Source of the DNA: Acidobacteriota bacterium
GTDB taxonomy: Bacteria; Acidobacteriota; UBA6911
Assembly (NCBI GenBank): GCA_016929335.1
Contig: JAFGIY010000037.1
Span: 1 to 64,000 of the forward strand
Reading direction: 5' to 3'
DNA length: 64,000 nucleotides
Numbering within the stretch: position 1 is the first letter of the stretch; each line of letters starts with the position of its first letter. The position numbers and the translations under genes were made by a program. The notes beneath the pieces are model-generated. The model did not search any database. It had not been told where the DNA came from and saw nothing but the letters and a program-made list of their open reading frames with translations. Positions 5,563-15,542 of the stretch are shown piece after piece.

Positions 5563-6339
5563 TCATTGTTCGCTCTGCCGGATTCTGAATTCTGCCGAAT
5601 GTGTCCGAACAGCCAATGCATTGAGCCGTTTGGGTTCCTTCTGAATACGCAGCACATCAATTGCCATTTCTTTTGTACTGCCGGTTCTTGCCTCTACTCC
5701 TATCCTTTCCACGGCATCAATCGCCATGAATCTGGTTTCCTTTATTTTGCTCTTCATTGGTTGGCGCAATAATGTGAGTGCCTTCCGGAAAGCGGATTCA
5801 TTCCCGGAGCCTTCAACGGCCCGGATGAGGGCATTGATGGCCGGCATTCGAACGGCGTTGAGATGACTGTCCATGGGCTCGGCCAATAAGTCCAGGGTTG
5901 CGTCCAGAAGGCCATCCCGGTCTTTCGAGCAGCGCAGGATGGCATTGAGAGCATCAATGGAAATAATTCTTGGATCCATGAGTTTGGACTTCATCGGTTC
6001 GGCAAGCGCTTCCAGGGCATTACGCTGCACGGAAACATCATCGGTACTGCAGGCAATATCGGCTATGGAATAAATGGCCGGTATCCGAACATCTATCTGA
6101 CTGCTTTTTACAGGTTCACGCAGCAGTCTCAATGCAGCCAGCTTGGTTTCCGATTTAGCCGATGAAATTGCGATATATTTGATCTTATAGAGAGAGGGGA
6201 GCCGGATCTCAGGATTATTGTACCTGATTGCATTCTGTTCGCATTCGATCGCATATAATTCAGGATTCCGGGCATAGATGAAATGCGCATCCGAAAGAAA
6301 CGCAATTATTGCCAGAGATATCGCCAAATAACTCCGCAT
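5563..6339 (-). CDS. Exported HEAT-like repeat protein
   Basis: The 258-residue product starts with a signal peptide (MRSYLAISLAIIAFLSDAHF). It then consists of about five helical repeats of roughly 40 residues, each containing R-x-P/x-A-I and ending in L-L-x-P-M-K/D-S. That pattern (RIPAIYSIADIAC, RIISIDALNAILRC, RMPAINALIRAVEG, RFMAIDAVERIGV) is typical of HEAT/PBS-like alpha solenoids that bind other proteins. No enzyme motif is visible. The gene is single on its strand with no functional partner nearby. The repeat assignment comes from the visible periodicity; the function is unknown. Confidence 0.7.
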   Translation of the reverse strand: MRSYLAISLAIIAFLSDAHFIYARNPELYAIECEQNAIRYNNPEIRLPSLYKIKYIAISSAKSETKLAALRLLREPVKSSQIDVRIPAIYSIADIACSTDDVSVQRNALEALAEPMKSKLMDPRIISIDALNAILRCSKDRDGLLDATLDLLAEPMDSHLNAVRMPAINALIRAVEGSGNESAFRKALTLLRQPMKSKIKETRFMAIDAVERIGVEARTGSTKEMAIDVLRIQKEPKRLNALAVRTHSAEFRIRQSEQ

Positions 6340-7240
6340 TTGACCTCCTCCGATTTTTGAAAAGGGGCTGAGATACCCGGGAGATAGTAATACATTTGAT
6401 TATCCCTAATCACGGCCATTTCAGATATTTAAGCAATCATTGTCCTGCTCGTACCGGCATACGCAGACGGCTTTAAAAACCATTGCATCGATCACATCAG
6501 GCATGCTGTGATTGTTCCAACATTGAATGCGAGAATCCTGTAATAAAGGGATCAGGAATATTTTGTGTTTTACACTGCCTTCCTCTTCCCGAGAATGGCG
6601 TTGACTGCATCTACGGAACGTCGGGAGAAGTCAGGCAGTCGGTGCATGCTGCGCGTCCGCCACAAAGCGAGATGAGATTGTCTTACCTGCATATAGACAG
6701 GCAGCGGCTAGGATCCACCCGTCGGCTTGCAGACCGTGTCCAGCAGAAGCGCTCTGTCCTATAACCGGACTTCGTGAGAGTTGTGCTTAATTGTTAAACC
6801 TTAGCAACGAGCCCGGCGACATCGATATCTTCAGCGCAATCAAAACCCAACTCGGTCTTAGCTTAAAATCAGGGAAGTCCGATGTCGAAGTTTTGATTAT
6901 TGACAATATTGAAAAGCCATCCGCCAATTGAGTCGAAAAACTGAGACTTGCTCTGAGACTAAGAAAAGACCCGGGTGCAAATGGGATTCCGCCCTTGATA
7001 AGCTTCAAAGCCCAAGACTATAGAAAAGACTTGCAGCAGGTAACTAATCTTTTGCCGCAATTCCCCAGAATGGGACTTTCGGGGGAGTGACGGGCATTTG
7101 AGGCCACGAGAGTCTGCCGTGAAATTGTAGCTTTATCTTTTGCAATCCAGTCCTTACGATACATACTGTGGATTTCGGGGAACCGATGAAGGGTAGGGTT
7201 TTGGTGACAAACAAGGATACAATGCAGATGGAGTCACAAG
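6340..7240. other. Long intergenic region with decayed coding sequence
   Basis: Between the divergently transcribed HEAT-like and AAA ATPase genes lie about 900 bases without an intact gene. Bases 6794-6931 hold a recognisable protein remnant (listed separately). The frame after it stays open to a TGA at 7088-7090, giving a Lys/Arg-rich peptide I cannot assign. The rest shows no convincing coding sequence on either strand. The region marks the left edge of an accessory segment. Confidence 0.6.
6794..6931 (+). pseudogene. C-terminal remnant of a TIGR03435/DUF3738 soil-associated protein
   Basis: The forward frame from 6794 encodes 45 residues ending in a stop. Its features (FSAIKTQLGLSLKS, then VEVLIIDNIEKPSAN at the end) are the characteristic closing segment of the TIGR03435/DUF3738 family, which is expanded in Acidobacteria (recognised from family knowledge). 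A stop lies immediately upstream (6788-6790) and the rest of the usual 250 or more residues is absent, so this is a dead fragment. It is useful as a taxonomic marker. Confidence 0.75.
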
Positions 7241-8395
7241 ATGCAGTTTAGACACCTGAAGCTTAAGAATTGGCGCAATTTCGTAAACGTGGATTTGTCC
7301 TTCGGTGAGCGCCTTTTCCTTACCGGACCAAATGCGAGCGGCAAATCCAACCTGCTCGACGCATTCCGATTCCTGCGCGACATCGCCAAAACGGGTGGTG
7401 GACTACAACAGGCTGTGCGCGAACGTGGTTCCCTCAGCAAGATCCGGTGTCTGGCCGCCAGGAGATATCCCGACGTCGAAATCGAAGTAGCGCTGGAGCA
7501 GAACGGTTCGGCCAATTCAACTACGTGGCGCTATGGCATCGGCATGAGGCAGGAATCACGTGGCCAACGCAGAGTGATGCTGTCCCATGAACACGTCTGG
7601 AGGAATGATGAGAAACTGCTGGATCGCCCTAATGCCGAGGATAAGAAAGACGACTGGCGATTGACTCAGACTCATTTGGAACAAATCGCCTCCAATGTTA
7701 CATTTCGCTCCGTGGCGGACGCGTTCCAAGAGATACTATATCTGCATCTCGTCCCGCAGCTCTTGAAGCACCCTAATCTGGCCAACCGAGAAGCAACGGC
7801 AGAAGATCCATTCGGCTTGAAATTTCTGGATCGGATCATGAGCGCCCCGGAAAAGACGCGCCGGGCTCGCTTACGGAGAATCGAACAAGCTCTAAAAATC
7901 GCAGTGCCCGAACTGGAGAATCTCACAGACATGCGGGATGAGCGGGGAATGCCGCACCTGGAAGCTCTTTACAAGCACTGGCGGCCCCAGGGAGGGCGGC
8001 AGCGTGAAGACCAATTTTCCGACGGCACGCTGCGATTGATCGGGCTTTTGTGGTCCCTCCTTGAAGGGGACGACCTTCTGCTGTTGGAGGAGCCGGAACT
8101 ATCCTTGCATGCCGGTGTCGTTTCCAAATTGCCGGCTTTGATCTGGCGCTTGCAGCGGCAAAAAATGCGTCAGGTCATTATCTCTTCCCATAGCGCCGAA
8201 ATGTTGGCAGATCGTGGCATCAAGCCGACGGAAGTTGCCCTCTTGCGACCTCACGGAAGCGAAGGAACTGTAGTGGAACTCGCCGCGGATCAGGAAAACA
8301 TCCGTCAGCTGCTCGAAGGAGGAATGACAATGGCGGATGCTGTGCTTCCGCTAACCGCACCCGAAGAAATCGAACAGATGGATCTCTTCACATGA
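7241..8395 (+). CDS. AAA/SMC-like ATPase of a putative two-gene defence module
   Basis: The 384-residue protein is an OLD/RecF-like ABC ATPase (AAA_21 type). It has an N-terminal strand LKLKNWRNF, a Walker A motif GPNASGKS (29-36), a signature-like FSDGTLRLIGL, a Walker B LLLLEEPELSLH and a switch region VIISSHSAEML. The coiled-coil arm is short, as in small ATPases that partner a nuclease. Its stop overlaps the start of the TOPRIM-like gene by four bases (ATGA), so the two are co-translated. ATPase-TOPRIM pairs are typical of OLD-like or PARIS-like antiphage systems. The exact class cannot be fixed without a search, and a DNA repair role is possible. Confidence 0.88.
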   Translation: MQFRHLKLKNWRNFVNVDLSFGERLFLTGPNASGKSNLLDAFRFLRDIAKTGGGLQQAVRERGSLSKIRCLAARRYPDVEIEVALEQNGSANSTTWRYGIGMRQESRGQRRVMLSHEHVWRNDEKLLDRPNAEDKKDDWRLTQTHLEQIASNVTFRSVADAFQEILYLHLVPQLLKHPNLANREATAEDPFGLKFLDRIMSAPEKTRRARLRRIEQALKIAVPELENLTDMRDERGMPHLEALYKHWRPQGGRQREDQFSDGTLRLIGLLWSLLEGDDLLLLEEPELSLHAGVVSKLPALIWRLQRQKMRQVIISSHSAEMLADRGIKPTEVALLRPHGSEGTVVELAADQENIRQLLEGGMTMADAVLPLTAPEEIEQMDLFT

Positions 8396-9006
8396 TGCGG
8401 CCGATACCCATTTATCTGGCAGTAGAGGATGAGTTGTCGGAATGGGTGGCTCGGCGCATTTTAAAGGAGAGGGAGGTTGAATATGTTATCGGTCCGGTCT
8501 TTCGGCGCGGCGGTTTTGGCTATCTGAAGAAAAACATCAGATCCTTTAGCAATGCAGCCAAGGGATGCCCTATCCTGCTCTTGACTGATCTCGATAAATA
8601 TCCCTGCCCGCCGGAACTCGTTACGGACTGGACAGTGCATCCTTTGCACCAGAATCTCCTTTTACGAGTCGCAGTGCGAGAAGTCGAAAGCTGGCTTTTA
8701 GGTGACGGGAATGGCTTATCAGCCTTTATGCGGCTCAAGAGGTCAGTTTCAATTCCGAATCCGGAAAACCTGAGTAACCCGAAAGAAGAGTTGCTCAGAC
8801 ACGCACTGAAAAGTCCATCACGCCAGATTCGAGATGCCCTGGTCTGGCGTGATGAGAGGACCGAAAGGGTTTATCAGGGACCCGATTATAACGGAACACT
8901 AGGCCGCTTTGTCGCCAATCAGTGGGACATCCCATCAGCATGCAGTCGGTGCAATAGTCTGGAGAGGCTTTTTACAGCCTTGCAGCGCCTGGAGGATAGG
9001 CTTTAA
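8392..9006 (+). CDS. TOPRIM-like (DUF4276-type) protein, partner of the AAA ATPase
   Basis: The 204-residue protein shows a TOPRIM-like pattern: an acidic residue after the first strand (YLAVEDE, E12), a D-x-D on a later strand (LLLTDLDKY, D66 and D68), and the segment REVESWLLGD (97-105), which matches the E-x-E-x-W-L-L-x-D signature of DUF4276-type proteins. TOPRIM domains in such pairs usually act as metal-dependent nucleases gated by the ATPase. It overlaps the ATPase gene by 4 bp. The C-terminal part (CSRCNSLERLF) has no assigned role. Assignment to DUF4276 is by eye; nuclease activity is inferred. Confidence 0.75.
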   Translation: MMRPIPIYLAVEDELSEWVARRILKEREVEYVIGPVFRRGGFGYLKKNIRSFSNAAKGCPILLLTDLDKYPCPPELVTDWTVHPLHQNLLLRVAVREVESWLLGDGNGLSAFMRLKRSVSIPNPENLSNPKEELLRHALKSPSRQIRDALVWRDERTERVYQGPDYNGTLGRFVANQWDIPSACSRCNSLERLFTALQRLEDRL

Positions 9007-9301
9007 TCCCTCGAACAGTCAAGAGATCTCAATAACGAACGATGGTATGACCTTGTCGGCCTATTAATAGATGGCTCGTTTTCCTTTCAAGGCAATCGTG
9101 TAATAAACCTCCCATCCAACGTCTGAACAGGGGAGGGTTGCATGTCTCGGCAAACCTGTACAGCATCGCAACCGCCGATGATGGGCAATGGTACAGATGC
9201 TTCCCAGATTGGGACCTCGTGGAACTTATTCTAATTTAGTGGAAGATTTAAACAATTTGCGGCTATTCTGATCCCTGCCTATGCTTTGGGAGATCGATAA
9301 A
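9007..9301. other. Intergenic region after the ATPase/TOPRIM pair
   Basis: About 295 bases with no coding sequence I can support. An imperfect inverted pair (AACCTCCC near 9106, GGGAGGGTT near 9132) could form a weak hairpin, but no T-run follows, so it is not called a terminator. Confidence 0.4.
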
Positions 9302-9895
9302 ATGGGACAGATCAACCTAGTTGAAATCAACAAAGCTCCTAATTATCTCCAGAACCTGTTTATCCTTTTCTTGGTCATTGCTGTTTGCTTCATATTAGTC
9401 CGAATAGCTCGATTGACATGGCGTCTCTTTTCTCTTCGCAAAAAGCAAGAATTATCCGTCTTTGGTAACCATGATGATGAAGCCATTGCCAAGGCTGCTC
9501 TCAGGGGACTGATTAGAAGGGAATCCATTATTTCGCAGATTCCCCGCGTATTTTCTATCTCGGTCATTGATGCGAAGTACTTATGGCTGTGGGATGTGTG
9601 TTACTCCATGATTAAATCAACCAGAACACTGTCAGTAATAATTGTAATTCTTTCATTTTCTGTCGCTGCCTTAGGATGCTTCGATATTTGCAGTGGTCTC
9701 AGGTATGAAGAAACAGCTGGTATTGCAGGCATTGGAGCCGCTGGTCAAGAAGTATTCTTCGTGCTCGCGATTGGATTAATTGTATCTGCCTTTTTTTACT
9801 GCTTTCCACTCGTATTTGAAGGAACATTATCCCGCAGACTGCGAGACTGGAACTATCTTAAGTCAGGGATCGAAGCGGAATTCAAATCAATGTAA
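9302..9895 (+). CDS. Predicted membrane protein, unknown function
   Basis: This is a 197-residue protein with three hydrophobic helices: one near the N-terminus (LFILFLVIAVCFILV), one near 115-135 (LSVIIVILSFSVAALGCF) and one near 160-180 (VFFVLAIGLIVSAFFYCF). The polar region between the first two is probably cytoplasmic. The ATG at 9302 is chosen because GGGAG lies nine bases upstream; an ATG at 9281 would add seven residues. I do not recognise the family. It lies just downstream of the ATPase/TOPRIM pair but is separated from it by nearly 300 bases, so a link is only suggested by position. Confidence 0.65.
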   Translation: MGQINLVEINKAPNYLQNLFILFLVIAVCFILVRIARLTWRLFSLRKKQELSVFGNHDDEAIAKAALRGLIRRESIISQIPRVFSISVIDAKYLWLWDVCYSMIKSTRTLSVIIVILSFSVAALGCFDICSGLRYEETAGIAGIGAAGQEVFFVLAIGLIVSAFFYCFPLVFEGTLSRRLRDWNYLKSGIEAEFKSM

Positions 9896-10009
9896 TAAAA
9901 GAATACATTCCATGAGCTATTGGTTACTTGCTCGAACGGGACATCAGCATAACAATTCCCAGAATGTTCCCAGAAACTGATAATTATAGATTCAGAATAG
10001 GACCGTCCT

Positions 10010-10660
10010 TCAAACGCTATCCGCTCTTAGCCGTGCCGACAGCGATAGAATAAGCCAGATGATCAATCCATAAAAAAGTGCAGAAACGATTAGAATTCCG
10101 TACCACACAAATGCGATATTTCCTTCCGGCGCAATTGGTTCAATAACCTTCCAAGCCGGAGCTGCCAAAAATTCATTGATTCGATCGCCAATCGTCAGAT
10201 CGTCTCCAAATCTAAATCTAAAGCTATCGGCAATAGAAATATCGATGGCTAATGCGGCACAACCAGCAAAGAGAAGTCGTTTTAGTTGACCGTTATTTTT
10301 AGCAGAAGTTTCCGTTATCTGCGGCCGCATTGTTACCGCCAAAAAGAATATGGCGATGAATATGTCTAATGGGATCAAAACTGGCCTCAAGAACGCAAAA
10401 ACGACAAGTGGATTTAGTATAAAAGCCACCCCAATCATGGCCCAAAAGACCAGCATGCGGTTTTGGTTCCAAATCATGTATGCACAATAGGCTGCTATAA
10501 AACACACTACAAGCCGCAAGAGCACGTAGTTGTAGTAATGATGGTTTCCGATCTCCACCCAATGCCGAATTGGAATTCCCAGAAGGAGTAAAACGGCCGC
10601 AACTATAGATGAAGCTCTTAATTTTGAAGAAAGCATTCTGGTGATGCTCAGAATTCTCAT
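10010..10660 (-). CDS. DUF6804-like integral membrane protein
   Basis: The 216-residue protein has about five hydrophobic helices. The central block (YNYVLLRLVVCFIAAYCAY, a W-rich connector, IGVAFILNPLV, then LIPLDIFIAIFFL) matches from memory the pattern of the small DUF6804 family, whose core reads YYxLLRxVVC...FNPxxP...DxxxAxIF. The C-terminal extension adds a further helix (GILIVSALFYGLIIWLIL). The function of the family is unknown. It stands alone, transcribed toward the preceding membrane protein gene. Confidence 0.65.
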   Translation of the reverse strand: MRILSITRMLSSKLRASSIVAAVLLLLGIPIRHWVEIGNHHYYNYVLLRLVVCFIAAYCAYMIWNQNRMLVFWAMIGVAFILNPLVVFAFLRPVLIPLDIFIAIFFLAVTMRPQITETSAKNNGQLKRLLFAGCAALAIDISIADSFRFRFGDDLTIGDRINEFLAAPAWKVIEPIAPEGNIAFVWYGILIVSALFYGLIIWLILSLSARLRADSV

Positions 10661-10904
10661 GGGCCTTATCCTTCAGGTGATGGTTGCGCATTTCCTATGA
10701 AATATGCATAGAGTCGCGGATAACCATATATGCCTTCTGAAAAGGTCTATCTTACAACGCATGATTTAAAAGAAATAATTACAAATTGCTATGGCACTGC
10801 AATTAATGGCCATAGAAACGGAAGAAGTCGTGACAACTCCCAAGAAACGCGCATCCAGGAAGTGTCCTGCATTGAGGCTTCGTGAGGCCCATTGGGGCAA
10901 TGGC

Positions 10905-11129
10905 TTAGAGGAGTTGTTGTAAGTCTTCGCGACTCAGGTCACAATCGAGGAGATTTTTCGCCAGAAGGCCGGGTCCGATGATTTCACCTGAGTGAGCGGG
11001 AACCACTGTGACGCGGCCATCCGGATGCTGTAGGAAATGATGGCTGCCCTTGATGCGAATCACATTGAATCCGGCGTTGCACAGAGCAACTATGATTTCC
11101 TTTCCCGTCAGCCTCGGGAGCCGGGTCAT
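10905..11129 (-). CDS. hicA: HicA-type mRNA interferase toxin
   Basis: The 74-residue protein is a double-stranded RNA-binding fold HicA/YcfA toxin. It opens with LTGKEIIVALCNAGF and carries the catalytic-type segment IKGSHHFLQHPDG, with the conserved His, followed by VVPAHSGEIIGPGLL. HicA cleaves mRNA independently of the ribosome and is neutralised by HicB. Its start overlaps the end of hicB by four bases. The antitoxin comes first here, reversed relative to the classical hicAB order but common in other loci. Length is normal, so the toxin looks intact. Confidence 0.92.
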   Translation of the reverse strand: MTRLPRLTGKEIIVALCNAGFNVIRIKGSHHFLQHPDGRVTVVPAHSGEIIGPGLLAKNLLDCDLSREDLQQLL

Positions 11130-11341
11130 GACGTCACGCTGATAGTTTGCACGCCAACAAAATCAAGCGGCTCCAAACTGTCCAGCTGAGCTTCCAAACA
11201 CAATTCGGCGGCCTCTCGGATCCGGATCATGAGTTCGTCCAAGGAACGAGCTTGCGAATGACAGCCCCGTAATTCCGGTATGGTTCCAATGTAGTATCCC
11301 TCAGCATCGCGCTCGATAATTACGCTAAAATTCCTGGTCAT
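11126..11341 (-). CDS. hicB: HicB-type antitoxin
   Basis: The 71-residue protein has the HicB partial RNase H fold: FSVIIERDAEGYYIGTIPELRGCHSQARSLDEL, then a helix IREAAELCLEA. It binds and blocks HicA. It lacks a C-terminal DNA-binding domain of MetJ/Arc or HTH type, so autoregulation would need another factor. It is first in a two-gene operon with hicA (4-bp overlap). Start at 11341 follows a GGAG-type site (GGAGGAGAAT in coding orientation). Confidence 0.92.
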   Translation of the reverse strand: MTRNFSVIIERDAEGYYIGTIPELRGCHSQARSLDELMIRIREAAELCLEAQLDSLEPLDFVGVQTISVTS

Positions 11342-11998
11342 TCTTCTCCTCCAGATATGCCTATTGTACCTCGATAGCCTTCAAAAATCCCTTTTGTGTC
11401 AATTCGTTTGAGCGTATTGCAGCTTAGGTGTGGCTGTTAATTGACCCAAGATTTTCTGGCAATTGCTTGTGTCCTTCCGGCAGATGACAGTAGGGAACGT
11501 GAAACGGCGTTGTGGGTAACTTCAAGATCAGCGCAGAAAAGTGTGGGATCGGCTACGCCAATCATCCAGAAACAGCCGGGCAAGAACGAAAGGAAAGTTG
11601 CGGTACAGGTATAAAATTTTGGGAAAAAATTCGTGGGAGGCGAGATAAGGATTTCCGTCGAGCACCCCTTTCAATGAATGAAACCGCCCTTTCCTGCTTT
11701 ATACGGGGTTATTTTATTTGAATCGGGAGTTGTGGCCGAAACGCGCCTGATTGGGTTCTAACAAGCGCTAGCCTATTCAAGGACTTACCTGAAAGGATCT
11801 GCAAAATATATAACGGTTGGCGGGCCAAACAGGCGAGTATCGGTTAGCTGATGCTGAGACTACTCGCAATAGATAAAGAAGCTGAGCGCCGACAGCTGAA
11901 AGCGCGCTGCATCCGCGAATCCTCGAAAACCCGGTGGCGCCCATGGGTCGCGGTGCTTTGCGCTTTCAGCTCGTAAAATGCCTCTTTCCGGATGTGGA
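11342..11998. other. Intergenic region between hicB and the selenoprotein pair
   Basis: About 650 bases with no gene I can support. A 69-codon forward frame at 11512-11721 has no ribosome site and no recognisable sequence. Copies of the CTGAAAGC palindromic repeat lie near 11886-11910 and 11957-11972, next to the 3' end of the downstream UGSC gene. Nothing else is seen. Confidence 0.5.
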
Positions 11999-13711
11999 CT
12001 ACCGCCACTTGTCAATCTGTATGGACTGGGAAGGCACCATGCCGCCCATACTGAAATAGTTGTTGTTGGATCCGCCGGTGACGACTACGGTAAACGTCCC
12101 GCCGGCGCTGCGCGTACCGCTGTTGAGATTCCCGCCCATGGCAGGCTTGGCACCAGGCGGTCGACCCGTTACCCATTCCGTAAGCTTTTCCACGGTATCG
12201 TATCCGGCATCCTTAACGAAGTTGGCAATCGGGGGACTCAGAACGGCGCAAGTTCCAAACAACCATCCGTCCTGTGTGCTGTAGATCTCTTTGATAATCC
12301 CGGGATAATCCATGTTCGGTCCCCAGGCAGTTGCTGCCCAGTTCTTGGCGGAAAGAATGCCCCACCCCATAAACAGGGTAACGATATTCTCGCCTTCTTT
12401 GAATCCGCGCCTCACAGACAGCGGCTTGAAGGGAGATCTCAGTTCATTTTCGGCCATGATAATTCCGATCAGGTTCATGGGATTGCCGATCGTGCCCATG
12501 TAGGTCGTTCCGACTTTGCCGCAGTTCCCGCCATTGATGGAAAGCAGGCTCCATGCTCTTCCAATCGTCGTATTGGCGTGTGCATAGGGACCTACGGCGC
12601 CCTCTTCGTAATTAAGCCCGATCTCATCGCGGATCTTTCCATTGATTACGGCGCCCGCCATGAAGCCGTTGTCGGAAACATTGACGGCCGTCTGGCCGGT
12701 TGAACCCAGCGCCAGGATGACCGGGAAATATTCCGGTTTAGCGCCCGCCATGACTGCATTAATCGCGGCAACCTTTACCGTATAAGTCCAGTTTTCACCG
12801 GCCTCAGATCCCGGATTCATTTTGCCGAGCACCTCGTCGGGGTCGTGGCTGGTCGCTTTCAGCATTTCATTGACTTTGTCTTCGGTAGGCAAAACCACGG
12901 GCAGGAAGTCCGTGTATCTCTTTTCCAGGAACAGCTTCTGAAGCTCATCCGGAGTGCCGGTATAGGTCGCCGGCCCCATATCTTTCTTCACTACTCCGGT
13001 TTTCTTCTCTTCGGCAGTCAGGGGTTTGGTCAAATTTTCCACCAGTTCCTTCATTACCGGTTTTCCTGTAATCGGATTATTGCCTTCCACAATCTGCTTC
13101 CTGATTTGCTCGTTCGTCTTAGCCCAGACCGGGCCGCGGAAATACTGGATTCGGAGGCCGGGCATGCCGAGGTTTAATGCCACCTCTTTTTCCTGTTTTG
13201 CAAACTCGGTCAGGATGAGAGGCACTGCGGGTTTTTTCATTTTGGACTCGATTTCAAATGAGAGGCGAACCGCCGCTGGAGCGCAGAGGCTTCAATGGCC
13301 CAGCCCGACAATGGCGGCGTCCCCTTTTTCAGAAATCTCAGTCCACAGGGCCGGGCTTACAGCCGACAACTGGGCCCCGCTCCGATTGTCCTTATACACA
13401 ATGTTGGTTTTGGGATAATTGGCCTTGAACCATTTCATCATCTCATCCATCAGACGATCGGTTCCGATATAGCCGGTATTAATAAAATAGAGGGTCTTGC
13501 CGTCCAGCGTGTCCAGGCGCGACGCCTGCGGTATCAACGTGATCGGCGGCGGCGTGCCCATTGGATTGAGCACCGTAATGTTTGGCATAACCACCGGTCT
13601 GTTGGACGAAGCCGCCCTCTTTCCCTGCGCATAGGGCTGATTGCTCAGCATGGAAACAGTGCAAACAAGGCCTATGCACAAAATTGTAATCACAGCGATA
13701 CGCAGTTTCAT
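11999..13711 (-). CDS. Exported UGSC-type selenoprotein (paralogue 2, Sec140) with large C-terminal module
   Basis: Read through one in-frame UGA (13294-13292), this is a 570-residue protein. Residues 1-30 are a signal peptide (start ATG 13711 with GGGAGGAA upstream). An N-terminal flavodoxin-like half (LDTLDGKTLYFINTGYIG) ends in GLGH, then U140-S-L-C, and continues in frame for 17 sense codons into MKKPAVPLILTEFA. The frame is the same on both sides, and the paralogue upstream has its UGA at the equivalent site, so this is not a frameshift. The C-terminal ~400 residues contain YTDFLPVVLPTED, INAVMAGAKPEYFPVI and GTIGNPMNLIG, shared with the paralogue, and are of unknown function. U-x-x-C suggests thiol/selenol redox chemistry outside the cytoplasm. 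Sec insertion machinery is not encoded in this window. Confidence 0.85.
13292..13294 (-). other. Recoded UGA (selenocysteine codon) in UGSC paralogue 2
   Basis: The codon reads TGA on the minus strand, flanked by a His codon before and Ser-Leu-Cys codons after. The reading frame stays open for 139 codons upstream and 430 downstream. The immediate downstream RNA is GC-rich, but I could not pick out a single convincing SECIS hairpin by eye. Confidence 0.82.
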
Positions 13712-13829: not shown

Positions 13830-15542
13830 TTAATACGGAGCGTATGCGGGAACGACGTCTCTATATTTCGCGACCAGTTTATCCCAGTTGCGCGGCAGCA
13901 CGATTTTCCTGGTCACGAAATCATTTTGAATGCCGCCGACACTTCGCAGCGCCGCCATCCATGCCCCCGGCCCGCCCGCTACCAGGACCATCAGGCCCGA
14001 AGGATCGACGATCCGCGGAGGCATTGAAAGGACGTCCGCGTCCTTCTTTCTCACCGGGACAAGGGAAGGCGCATTCTCGATAACGTACTTCTTGAGCTTT
14101 TCCTTTGTCCAGCCGGCATCCGCAAGAATTTTAGCGTGCGAAGGAATCACGATCAGGCAGGACATGTTCCATGGCTGCAGGTTCGCCAGCGCCTGCGCAA
14201 TCCCTTCCGCGCCGGTATCCATCGGAACGCTTTGCAGGAAGTTATTGGGGAAAAACACGGTTACGGTATTGTCTTCTTTCCTGAATCCCCGCTCCACCTG
14301 CAGCGGCTCCCACGGTGTTTCTTCCTCATTCTCGCCGATTACAAGGCTGTATTTGGAAGGGTTGCCGACAACGCCCATGTCCTCGACGCCTTTCCTCGCT
14401 CCGCCGATGTTCTTGACGATCAATCCAACGGCTCGCCCGATGGCGGAATTGGCAATATTCCCGGGGCTGAGAGAACCCGAACCGGAATTGATGTGGATAT
14501 CGTGCCGTATCGGCCCGTTGATAGCGAAGAAAGGAGCCCAGGACCCGGTGCTCACTTCGAAAGTATCGAAGCGCGTCTTCTGGTCCGCGAGAGCTTCCAC
14601 CGCGGCGATCAACACCGGCATATGCGTCGGCAGCGCTCCCGCCATAACCGCGTTTATGGCGATCTTTTCAACGGTGGCTTTGCCTAACCGCGGAATAACC
14701 TTTGCCACCACATGACCCGCAGGCAGATCCGTGCCGGTCAGCATCTCCGACAGGGCTTCTTCAGTAGGCGGCACAATCGGCAGACCGTCGGTCCAGCCGT
14801 TTTTATAATAGAAACGATTTACTTCCTCGAAGTTTCCCTTGAAAGCCACTCTGGGAGACGGGACTGCCTTTGATTTCGGCGATTTTTCCTCGGCAGTCAG
14901 CGGTGTGGTCAATGATTCCACGATGCCCGGCATCGCGGCAGCGGTGCCCGCATCGATATCGGCTTTAACCGTCGTTTCATTTGCTACGTTCAAAGGAAGA
15001 ACCCGGATTCCGGGGACTCCTCTGCTGGATGCAGCCGAATGAGCGTCTGCAATAAATCCGGGATGCGCCAGTAACACGACCGGCGTGCCAAAGTCCTCGA
15101 TCGCGATTGCGTTATATACGAGGAACTTTGTGCAGGACCCTCAATCTCCGACCGAGAGGATGACGGCATCGACCTCTTTGGCCCATGCCTCAAACTTGTC
15201 CTTATTTTTCGTCTCAACGACCGAGACATTCCACTCGGTAGAAACGAAGTAGCTTATCCGGGTGTCGGGATACATGGCTTTCAGTCTTCTTTCAACCGAC
15301 TCGCCGATGGGCCTGGCAGCTCGCTTGTAGTTGACGAATAAGCCGATCTTTTTACCCGCCAGGGTGTCCAGTCTCTTCGCGGTGAGCCCTCTGAGCGGTA
15401 TGGGATCCACTTCCGCCCACGGGCTGAGGACTTGATACTTCGGTCCCGATTTGTTTTGAGCAAACAGCACATTGGAGGAATCCGGGATTGCCGTCAGAAA
15501 GACGGCCGCTCCCAGGATCAAAAGCAACTTCAATCCGGGCAT
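13830..15542 (-). CDS. Exported UGSC-type selenoprotein (paralogue 1, Sec134) with large C-terminal module
   Basis: Read through one UGA (15143-15141), this is a 570-residue protein. ATG 15542 has AAGGAGAG upstream and begins a signal peptide (PGLKLLLILGAAVFL, cleavage after FAQ). The N-terminal domain (LDTLAGKKIGLFVNYKR ... VDAVILSVGD) is followed by U134-G-S-C-T and then in-frame FLVYNAIAIEDFGTPVVLLAHPGF. This is the defining layout of the UGSC (seleno)protein family, where the second half carries a GTPVVLL strand. The C-terminal ~400 residues hold NGWTDGLPIVPPTEE, KIAINAVMAGALPTH, SGSGSLSPGNIANSAIGRA and PWEPLQVERGF. This recurring but uncharacterised module has no enzyme motif I can name. 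It is followed after 118 bases by the paralogue and probably shares its transcript. Confidence 0.9.
15141..15143 (-). other. Recoded UGA (selenocysteine codon) in UGSC paralogue 1
   Basis: TGA lies between Gly-Asp and Gly-Ser-Cys codons, giving the exact D-U-G-S-C motif. A possible hairpin pairs TCCTCG (15124-15119) with CGAGGA (15099-15094), leaving a 19-base loop about 20 bases after the UGA, in the range used by bacterial SECIS elements. This fold is a by-eye candidate only. Confidence 0.88.

Follow-up and report, generated by a model that had tools for sequence, protein, structure and literature searches.

The window, a stretch of 64,000 nucleotides from an Acidobacteriota genome, contained two adjacent genes that probably encode exported two-part selenoenzymes, in which selenocysteine (Sec, U) would attack a small organic substrate and which belong to an expansion at the level of the genus. 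We place the probability of this combined reading at roughly 0.6. The two parts are a UGSC domain and a C-terminal partner, here called the C-module. The features of the gene pair were the following:

13830..15542, minus strand: gene 1, a predicted 570-residue UGSC/C-module selenoprotein with an export signal; single frame with the TGA read as U, ending in TAA (PF24696, E 8.4e-24)
15459..15542, minus strand: signal peptide-like N-terminus of gene 1, residues 1-28 (approximate end); hydropathy 2.73, model pLDDT below 50 for residues 1-20
15141..15143, minus strand: in-frame TGA, predicted Sec134 of gene 1, motif D-U-G-S-C; TGA in this column in 17 of 27 own-genome paralogues and 88 of 105 relatives' domains
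14907..15383, minus strand: UGSC domain of gene 1, residues 54-212 (PF24696; modelled as an alpha/beta domain)
15089..15130, minus strand: candidate bacterial SECIS hairpin of gene 1, starting 10 nt past the UGA; -15.6 kcal/mol, apical loop AAUC with no G
13863..14837, minus strand: C-module of gene 1, about residues 236-560, unnamed family (alignments A1/A3; model pLDDT 92.3; no recurring Pfam or PDB-fold match)
11999..13711, minus strand: gene 2, a predicted 570-residue UGSC/C-module selenoprotein of another subfamily (by the tree), with an export signal (PF24696, E 6.8e-17)
13292..13294, minus strand: in-frame TGA, predicted Sec140 of gene 2, motif H-U-S-L-C; same alignment column as in gene 1
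13094..13573, minus strand: UGSC domain of gene 2, residues 47-206 (PF24696)

Minus-strand translation of 15542-13830 gave 133 codons, the TGA (15143-15141), a further 436 codons and a TAA, bearing out the readthrough frame with D-U-G-S-C at the stop that an earlier sequence-only reading of this DNA had proposed. Calling with table 11 produced two ORFs at this place, 15602-15141 and 15077-13830, which is the splitting by standard gene callers expected in that reading. Its signal peptide was recovered by hydropathy at the start of the frame, which reads MPGLKLLLILGAAVFLTAI... and is preceded by AAGGAGAG; export itself was judged from this N-terminal sequence. The size given for the C-terminal module, about 400 residues, had to be reduced to 330-350. 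The frame is not a product of chance, because the Pfam UGSC domain spans the TGA, with homology on both sides of it. In another genome of the same genus (G002), locus L184 was 67% identical to gene 1 over 571 columns and had its own TGA at the same motif. Rfam and tRNA scans of the window gave no matches.

Gene 2, overlooked in the sequence-only reading, lies directly downstream of gene 1 and matches it in architecture and length. A tree of the C-modules placed gene 1 with L046, L047, L048 and L052 (records titled Dehalococcoidales, Burkholderiales, Gammaproteobacteria and Bordetella); it put gene 2 inside a clade of own-genome USxC proteins. As this assigns the two genes to separate subfamilies, a recent tandem duplication is not supported as the origin of the pair. 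A similar pair, a UGSC type followed by a USxC type, was present in G002, and L184 was 39% identical to gene 2.

All components of Sec decoding that the sequence-only reading had named for a genome search were found in the own genome (G000; 6.5 Mb in 258 contigs, contamination 6.3): selA (472 bits in the profile search), selB (385 bits, encoded on the contig that includes the window), a selD with its own in-frame TGA (motif G-U-A-A-K) and a tRNA-Sec whose anticodon is UCA (70.7 bits). The selD gene, at L130 (contig C4, 71092-72027), adjoins a putative NifS-like aminotransferase gene assigned by eye. Since selB was detected at E ≤ 1e-60 in 54 of the 60 genomes searched, Sec use appears general in the sampled phylum, but the UGSC expansion does not. 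A general reassignment of TGA was rejected, because TGA terminates 25 of the 83 mechanical ORFs of at least 250 aa in the own-genome loci and in positions 8-26 kb of the window, a rough control, since not every ORF of this kind is a gene, and because some own paralogues, as delimited here, themselves terminate in TGA. The UGA of these genes is almost certainly decoded as Sec, and the presence of Sec is established as far as sequence goes.

The own genome included 27 copies of the PF24696 domain, 25 of them above the cut-off (a repeat search listed 26); one copy, L031, was truncated by a contig end. In the alignment, the Sec column was occupied by TGA in 17 of the 27 paralogues and by another residue in ten (S in five, and L, G, N, A and M), never by Cys. 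Each of the 17 TGA codons was followed by x-x-C with varied flanks, and the motifs included UGSC, USLC, USQC, USVC, USSC, UDGC, UDSC, UPGC, UWGC and UHGC. Also the partner Cys was absent from all ten Sec-less paralogues but one. Because of these ten genes, part of the family would seem to work without Sec chemistry. Sec-less paralogues were located in loci L029, L030, L033, L035, L037 and L039, and four had Tat-like signals. The one at L030 (contig C119, 10500-12209 of the locus) is a diverged gene adjoining genes for FAD and molybdopterin oxidoreductases; seven of the nine same-genus genomes contained matches with an equally short profile extent and no TGA.

Relatives were sampled by a pattern-limited and capped scan in which 80 loci were kept of 544 relatives. 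Among their 105 UGSC domains the Sec column held U in 88, Cys in four (L073, L074, L075 and L120) and other residues in 13, so that the Cys homologues suggested as a check on residue 134 do exist, and the assignment to the UGSC selenoproteins agrees with a domain spanning the TGA, a present machinery and a TGA-rich column in paralogues and relatives alike. A quick C-module tree of 98 rows required a minimum of 11 switches between Sec and non-Sec states. Alignments A2 and A4 were cut by hand to 124 of 135 candidate rows and 84 of 103 rows, respectively; A3 contained all 107 listed rows, one sequence having been omitted because its module contained a TGA, and shorter sequences lying outside the set.

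A hairpin after 15141, sought as a bacterial SECIS element at the suggestion of the sequence-only reading, was found for gene 1. It was strong (z -2.96, 1 of 200 shuffles as good) and none of 20 synonymous recodings equalled it; when the whole stretch from the UGA was folded, z was -1.97 and 7 of 200 shuffles were as good. The bacterial SECIS consensus expects a G in the apical loop (PMC13188914, in the part available), and as the loop AAUC has none, the element is only partly supported: the strong hairpin stands, and the strict apical-loop rule fails. For gene 2 no hairpin above chance was found with either shuffles (z -0.32 and 0.88) or synonymous recodings (10 of 20 as good). Under the strict rule (a loop G and -7.5 kcal/mol) 14 of the 17 own genes passed, against 31% of shuffled sequences, and genes 1 and 2 were both among the three that failed; without the loop-G requirement, 16 of 17 reached -7.5 kcal/mol. 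The 17 own hairpins had a mean of -12.6 kcal/mol in comparison to -8.9 for synonymous recodings, but individually only seven of the 17 genes had 0 or 1 of 20 recodings as good. Among the relatives, for which 86 of the 88 Sec domains could be used (two were too short), the means were -14.4 and -10.9 kcal/mol, and 39 of the 86 had 0 or 1 of 20 recodings as good.

Genes 1 and 2 scored 85.1 and 62.6 bits with PF24696 (cut-off 25 bits) and 70.2 and 41.5 bits with the NF041046 equivalog (cut-off 125). By these scores they are members of the NF041046 superfamily, not of the equivalog itself. They share with the family the domain, the U-x-x-C motif, the retention of Sec in most members and the rarity of Cys homologues. 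The family models cover only 147-172 residues, whereas here the domain is fused to the C-module, preceded by a predicted signal peptide and present in a set of 27 members whose motifs vary. To be a selenoprotein is in itself nothing new for such a gene, since a UGSC selenoprotein family and its fusion to a domain termed 'Unknown_1' were reported in 2008 from the Global Ocean Sampling data (PMC2398784, Fig. S1A); that domain may correspond to the C-module. Beyond that report, the available part of which makes no mention of them, go the predicted export, the separate partner gene, the expansion within the genus and the likeness to GrdB and PrdB. Among the titles returned by a literature search, no paper devoted to the UGSC family was found.

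When 84 UGSC domains were compared with other families, the recurring matches were to TIGR01917 (33 domains, best 1.1e-5), NF040794 (21), PrdB (17), TIGR01918 (17) and NF040795 (16); the next family matched four. These matches were remote: at 0.1 TIGR01917 had no match for 51 of the 84 domains, and the scores lay far below the cut-offs (17.1 against 602.2 bits for TIGR01917, 12.8 against 300 for PrdB). The UGSC domain is thus remotely similar, at the level of profiles, to the Sec domain of selenoprotein B of glycine/sarcosine/betaine reductase and of D-proline reductase PrdB (TIGR01917, NF040794, NF040795, TIGR04483), which also has U-x-x-C, and the match covers the motif stretch. The known reductases have a pyruvoyl partner of the GrdE/PrdA type, whereas here none was recognised, and the partner is the C-module, accompanied by an export signal. 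PF09338 matched only two of the 84 UGSC domains (best E 0.013) and was absent from the 25 of 27 families listed for 107 C-modules. PF07355 (GRDB) gave partial weak matches in 19 of the 60 genomes, and the UGSC profile gave two weak matches on L162-L181 (E 0.0007 and 0.002), which were not used. Precedent for GrdB-like proteins with other substrates is provided by the candidate GrdB-like reductive dehalogenases of fluoroacetate in Synergistota described in the available part of PMC10838667.

The UGSC domain and the C-module were fused in one ORF in 76 cases. Of the 33 lone C-modules, 28 shared strand and locus with a lone UGSC gene, and the distance between the two was within 260 bp in 22, in either order. 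Also the four short UGSC genes detected in the genome search were each adjoined by a C-module ORF. As separate C-module genes usually accompany a separate UGSC gene, the two parts appear to work together, and that they form a two-part enzyme is, from this pairing, highly probable. L104 and L117 (records titled Poribacteria) had C-modules with no UGSC domain in the stretch, the profile match stopping at position 263 of about 330. That the module has no known activity, as had been claimed, held for Pfam, for NCBIfam (the two window proteins) and for the PDB: no Pfam family recurred among the 107 C-modules, no PDB fold matched the modelled C-module at E ≤ 0.001, and sequence searches of the PDB with gene 1, the full alignment and the C-module and UGSC profiles gave nothing convincing. 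Fumarate hydratase, as a relative of the module, was not trusted (Foldseek E 0.011, probability 0.30). A well-modelled domain of about 350 residues without a PDB match would make a good structural target.

The expansion was examined in 60 genomes including the own one, of which nine belonged to the same genus and 50 to other genera. The nine same-genus genomes had 10-28 UGSC copies each, and outside the genus the domain was found in four of the 50 genomes, with one copy in each. Altogether 138 matches in the nine genomes comprised 117 with one TGA, two with two TGA, one with TGA and TAA, and 18 without stops, so an in-frame TGA lay inside the domain in 120; for the exact Sec column, the check covered the own-genome genes plus loci L126-L129 and L182-L185. 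In G008, 20 of 28 matches carried TGA. At L182 (G009) and L183 (G008), from two species, two consecutive in-frame TGA codons gave the motif G-G-U-U-G-C, a predicted Sec-Sec pair, and L183 had extra TGA codons close to the C-terminal end. Elsewhere, 63 selenoprotein genes have been predicted in one Methylomirabilota bin (PMC13188914, in the part available).

An N-terminal signal or Tat-like signal was present in 22 of the 27 own copies by hydropathy, with hand-chosen starts, compared with at most 11 of the 105 relatives' domains in a lenient test. Own-genome neighbours were mixed, including esterases, flavin and FAD oxidoreductases and a molybdopterin dehydrogenase-like protein, and the window pair's own neighbours gave no functional hint. 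In the relatives, the fusion gene at L116 (record titled Rhizobiaceae) stood in a row with an AIRS-family gene (probably selD), a thioredoxin reductase (TrxR)-like gene, selA and selB; the stretch at about 5833-13130 of this locus resembles a self-contained selenium island whose client would be the UGSC enzyme. At L048 selB and a TrxR-like gene lay on one flank of the fusion gene and selA on the other, and at L118 selA and selB stood beside a separate UGSC/C-module pair. TrxR-like genes, identified from representatives and clustering, occurred in six of the 80 loci and were below the thioredoxin-reductase cut-off where scored. The UGSC protein lacked a signal at four of the six (L048 fusion, L064, L084 and L109), and those of L052 and L116 were flagged as signal-bearing in the lenient test. 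Because the TrxR-like neighbours are mostly beside signal-less UGSC proteins and 22 of the 27 own copies bear signals, the electron supply of the exported copies is where the proposed mechanism is weakest.

Other neighbours in the relatives' loci were TctC (60 proteins in 20 loci), SBP_bac_5 (seven loci), MmgE/PrpD (six) and AMP-binding proteins (six). TctC receptors are very numerous in Burkholderiales, and their abundance near these genes may therefore reflect the hosts. A glycyl-radical enzyme (PFL2-3 type, below the cut-off) and a radical-SAM activase (by clustering) were present near the UGSC/C-module genes at L098, L105 and L115. Taken together, the neighbours point to a metabolism of small molecules that, in some relatives, would use a thiol reductant.

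The proposed mechanism starts from a UGA decoded as Sec by the cell's own SelA, SelB, SelD and tRNA-Sec. The UGSC domain would be an alpha/beta domain placing Sec at the start of a helix, with the partner Cys three residues on (U-x-x-C), and the C-module would probably provide the pocket for the substrate together with some of the active site, which would lie between the domains. Conserved in the C-module are D252, N365, R370 and E404, candidates for residues that Sec134 would face. Sec would then attack a small organic substrate, either nucleophilically or reductively, by reductive cleavage or reduction; the odds of a GrdB/PrdB-like reductive chemistry, suggested by the profile similarity, we put slightly short of even. 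The resulting bridge in U-x-x-C would be re-reduced, in some relatives by the adjoining TrxR-like flavoprotein and in the exported forms by an extracytoplasmic donor. In the genus, the enzyme would be exported and has multiplied into many diverged copies, most likely for different substrates.

The main competitor of this mechanism is a general extracytoplasmic thiol/selenol oxidoreductase, engaged in disulfide exchange or in the repair of peroxide or methionine-sulfoxide damage, in which the C-module would dock and the copies would serve different client proteins. U-x-x-C is a redox motif, the TrxR-like neighbours at six loci and the export signals fit such a role, and a thioredoxin-like fold with a redox role was proposed for UGSC proteins in the available part of PMC2398784; the structural matches listed for our model were other alpha/beta domains, with no thioredoxin-like chains among them, although a thioredoxin-like fold may lie beyond those listed. 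Such an oxidoreductase is nevertheless unlikely, as the TctC, SBP5, MmgE/PrpD, CoA-transferase and AMP-binding neighbours speak for small-molecule metabolism, the likeness that recurs is to GrdB and PrdB, and a conserved partner of about 330 residues is large for a docking part. Clearly less probable still is a binding or detoxification protein whose Sec coordinates a metal, a metalloid or an organometal. A binding role would be in keeping with copies that are exported, numerous and diverged, and Sec as a possible metal ligand has been proposed for SaoB, SaoC and UXX-star (PMC13188914, in the part available), but a single U-x-x-C with an enzyme-like conserved module would be atypical of it, and the neighbours scanned, a hand-picked subset, included no metal-resistance family.

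The possibility of a genuine stop, a sequencing error or decay at the TGA, leaving two fragments or a pseudogene, is close to negligible. Plain ORF calling does split gene 1, both window genes fail the strict SECIS rule, and the gene 2 hairpin was not above chance. Against this stand the conserved TGA column of the 17 own paralogues and 88 relatives' domains, the TGA inside the domain in 120 same-genus matches, homology continuing through the TGA and the complete Sec machinery, and it is by the TGA conservation that this reading was rejected as far as sequence data can do so.

With the two-part selenoenzyme as the preferred reading, what was an 'unknown redox protein' becomes, through the recurring partner domain, the remote link to GrdB and PrdB and the Sec-synthesis, TrxR-like and uptake neighbours, a two-part enzyme open to testing. 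For annotation, as many as about 20 genes in a genome of this genus may be fragmented by plain gene calling. A wider and more tentative proposal, to which we give somewhat poorer odds than to the reductive chemistry, is that the genus may have evolved a selenium chemistry outside the cell, based on an exported two-part Sec enzyme with a GrdB/PrdB-like UGSC domain and a C-module of new fold, diversified into as many as about 28 copies in a genome, with a different organic substrate for each copy and two adjacent Sec residues in some.
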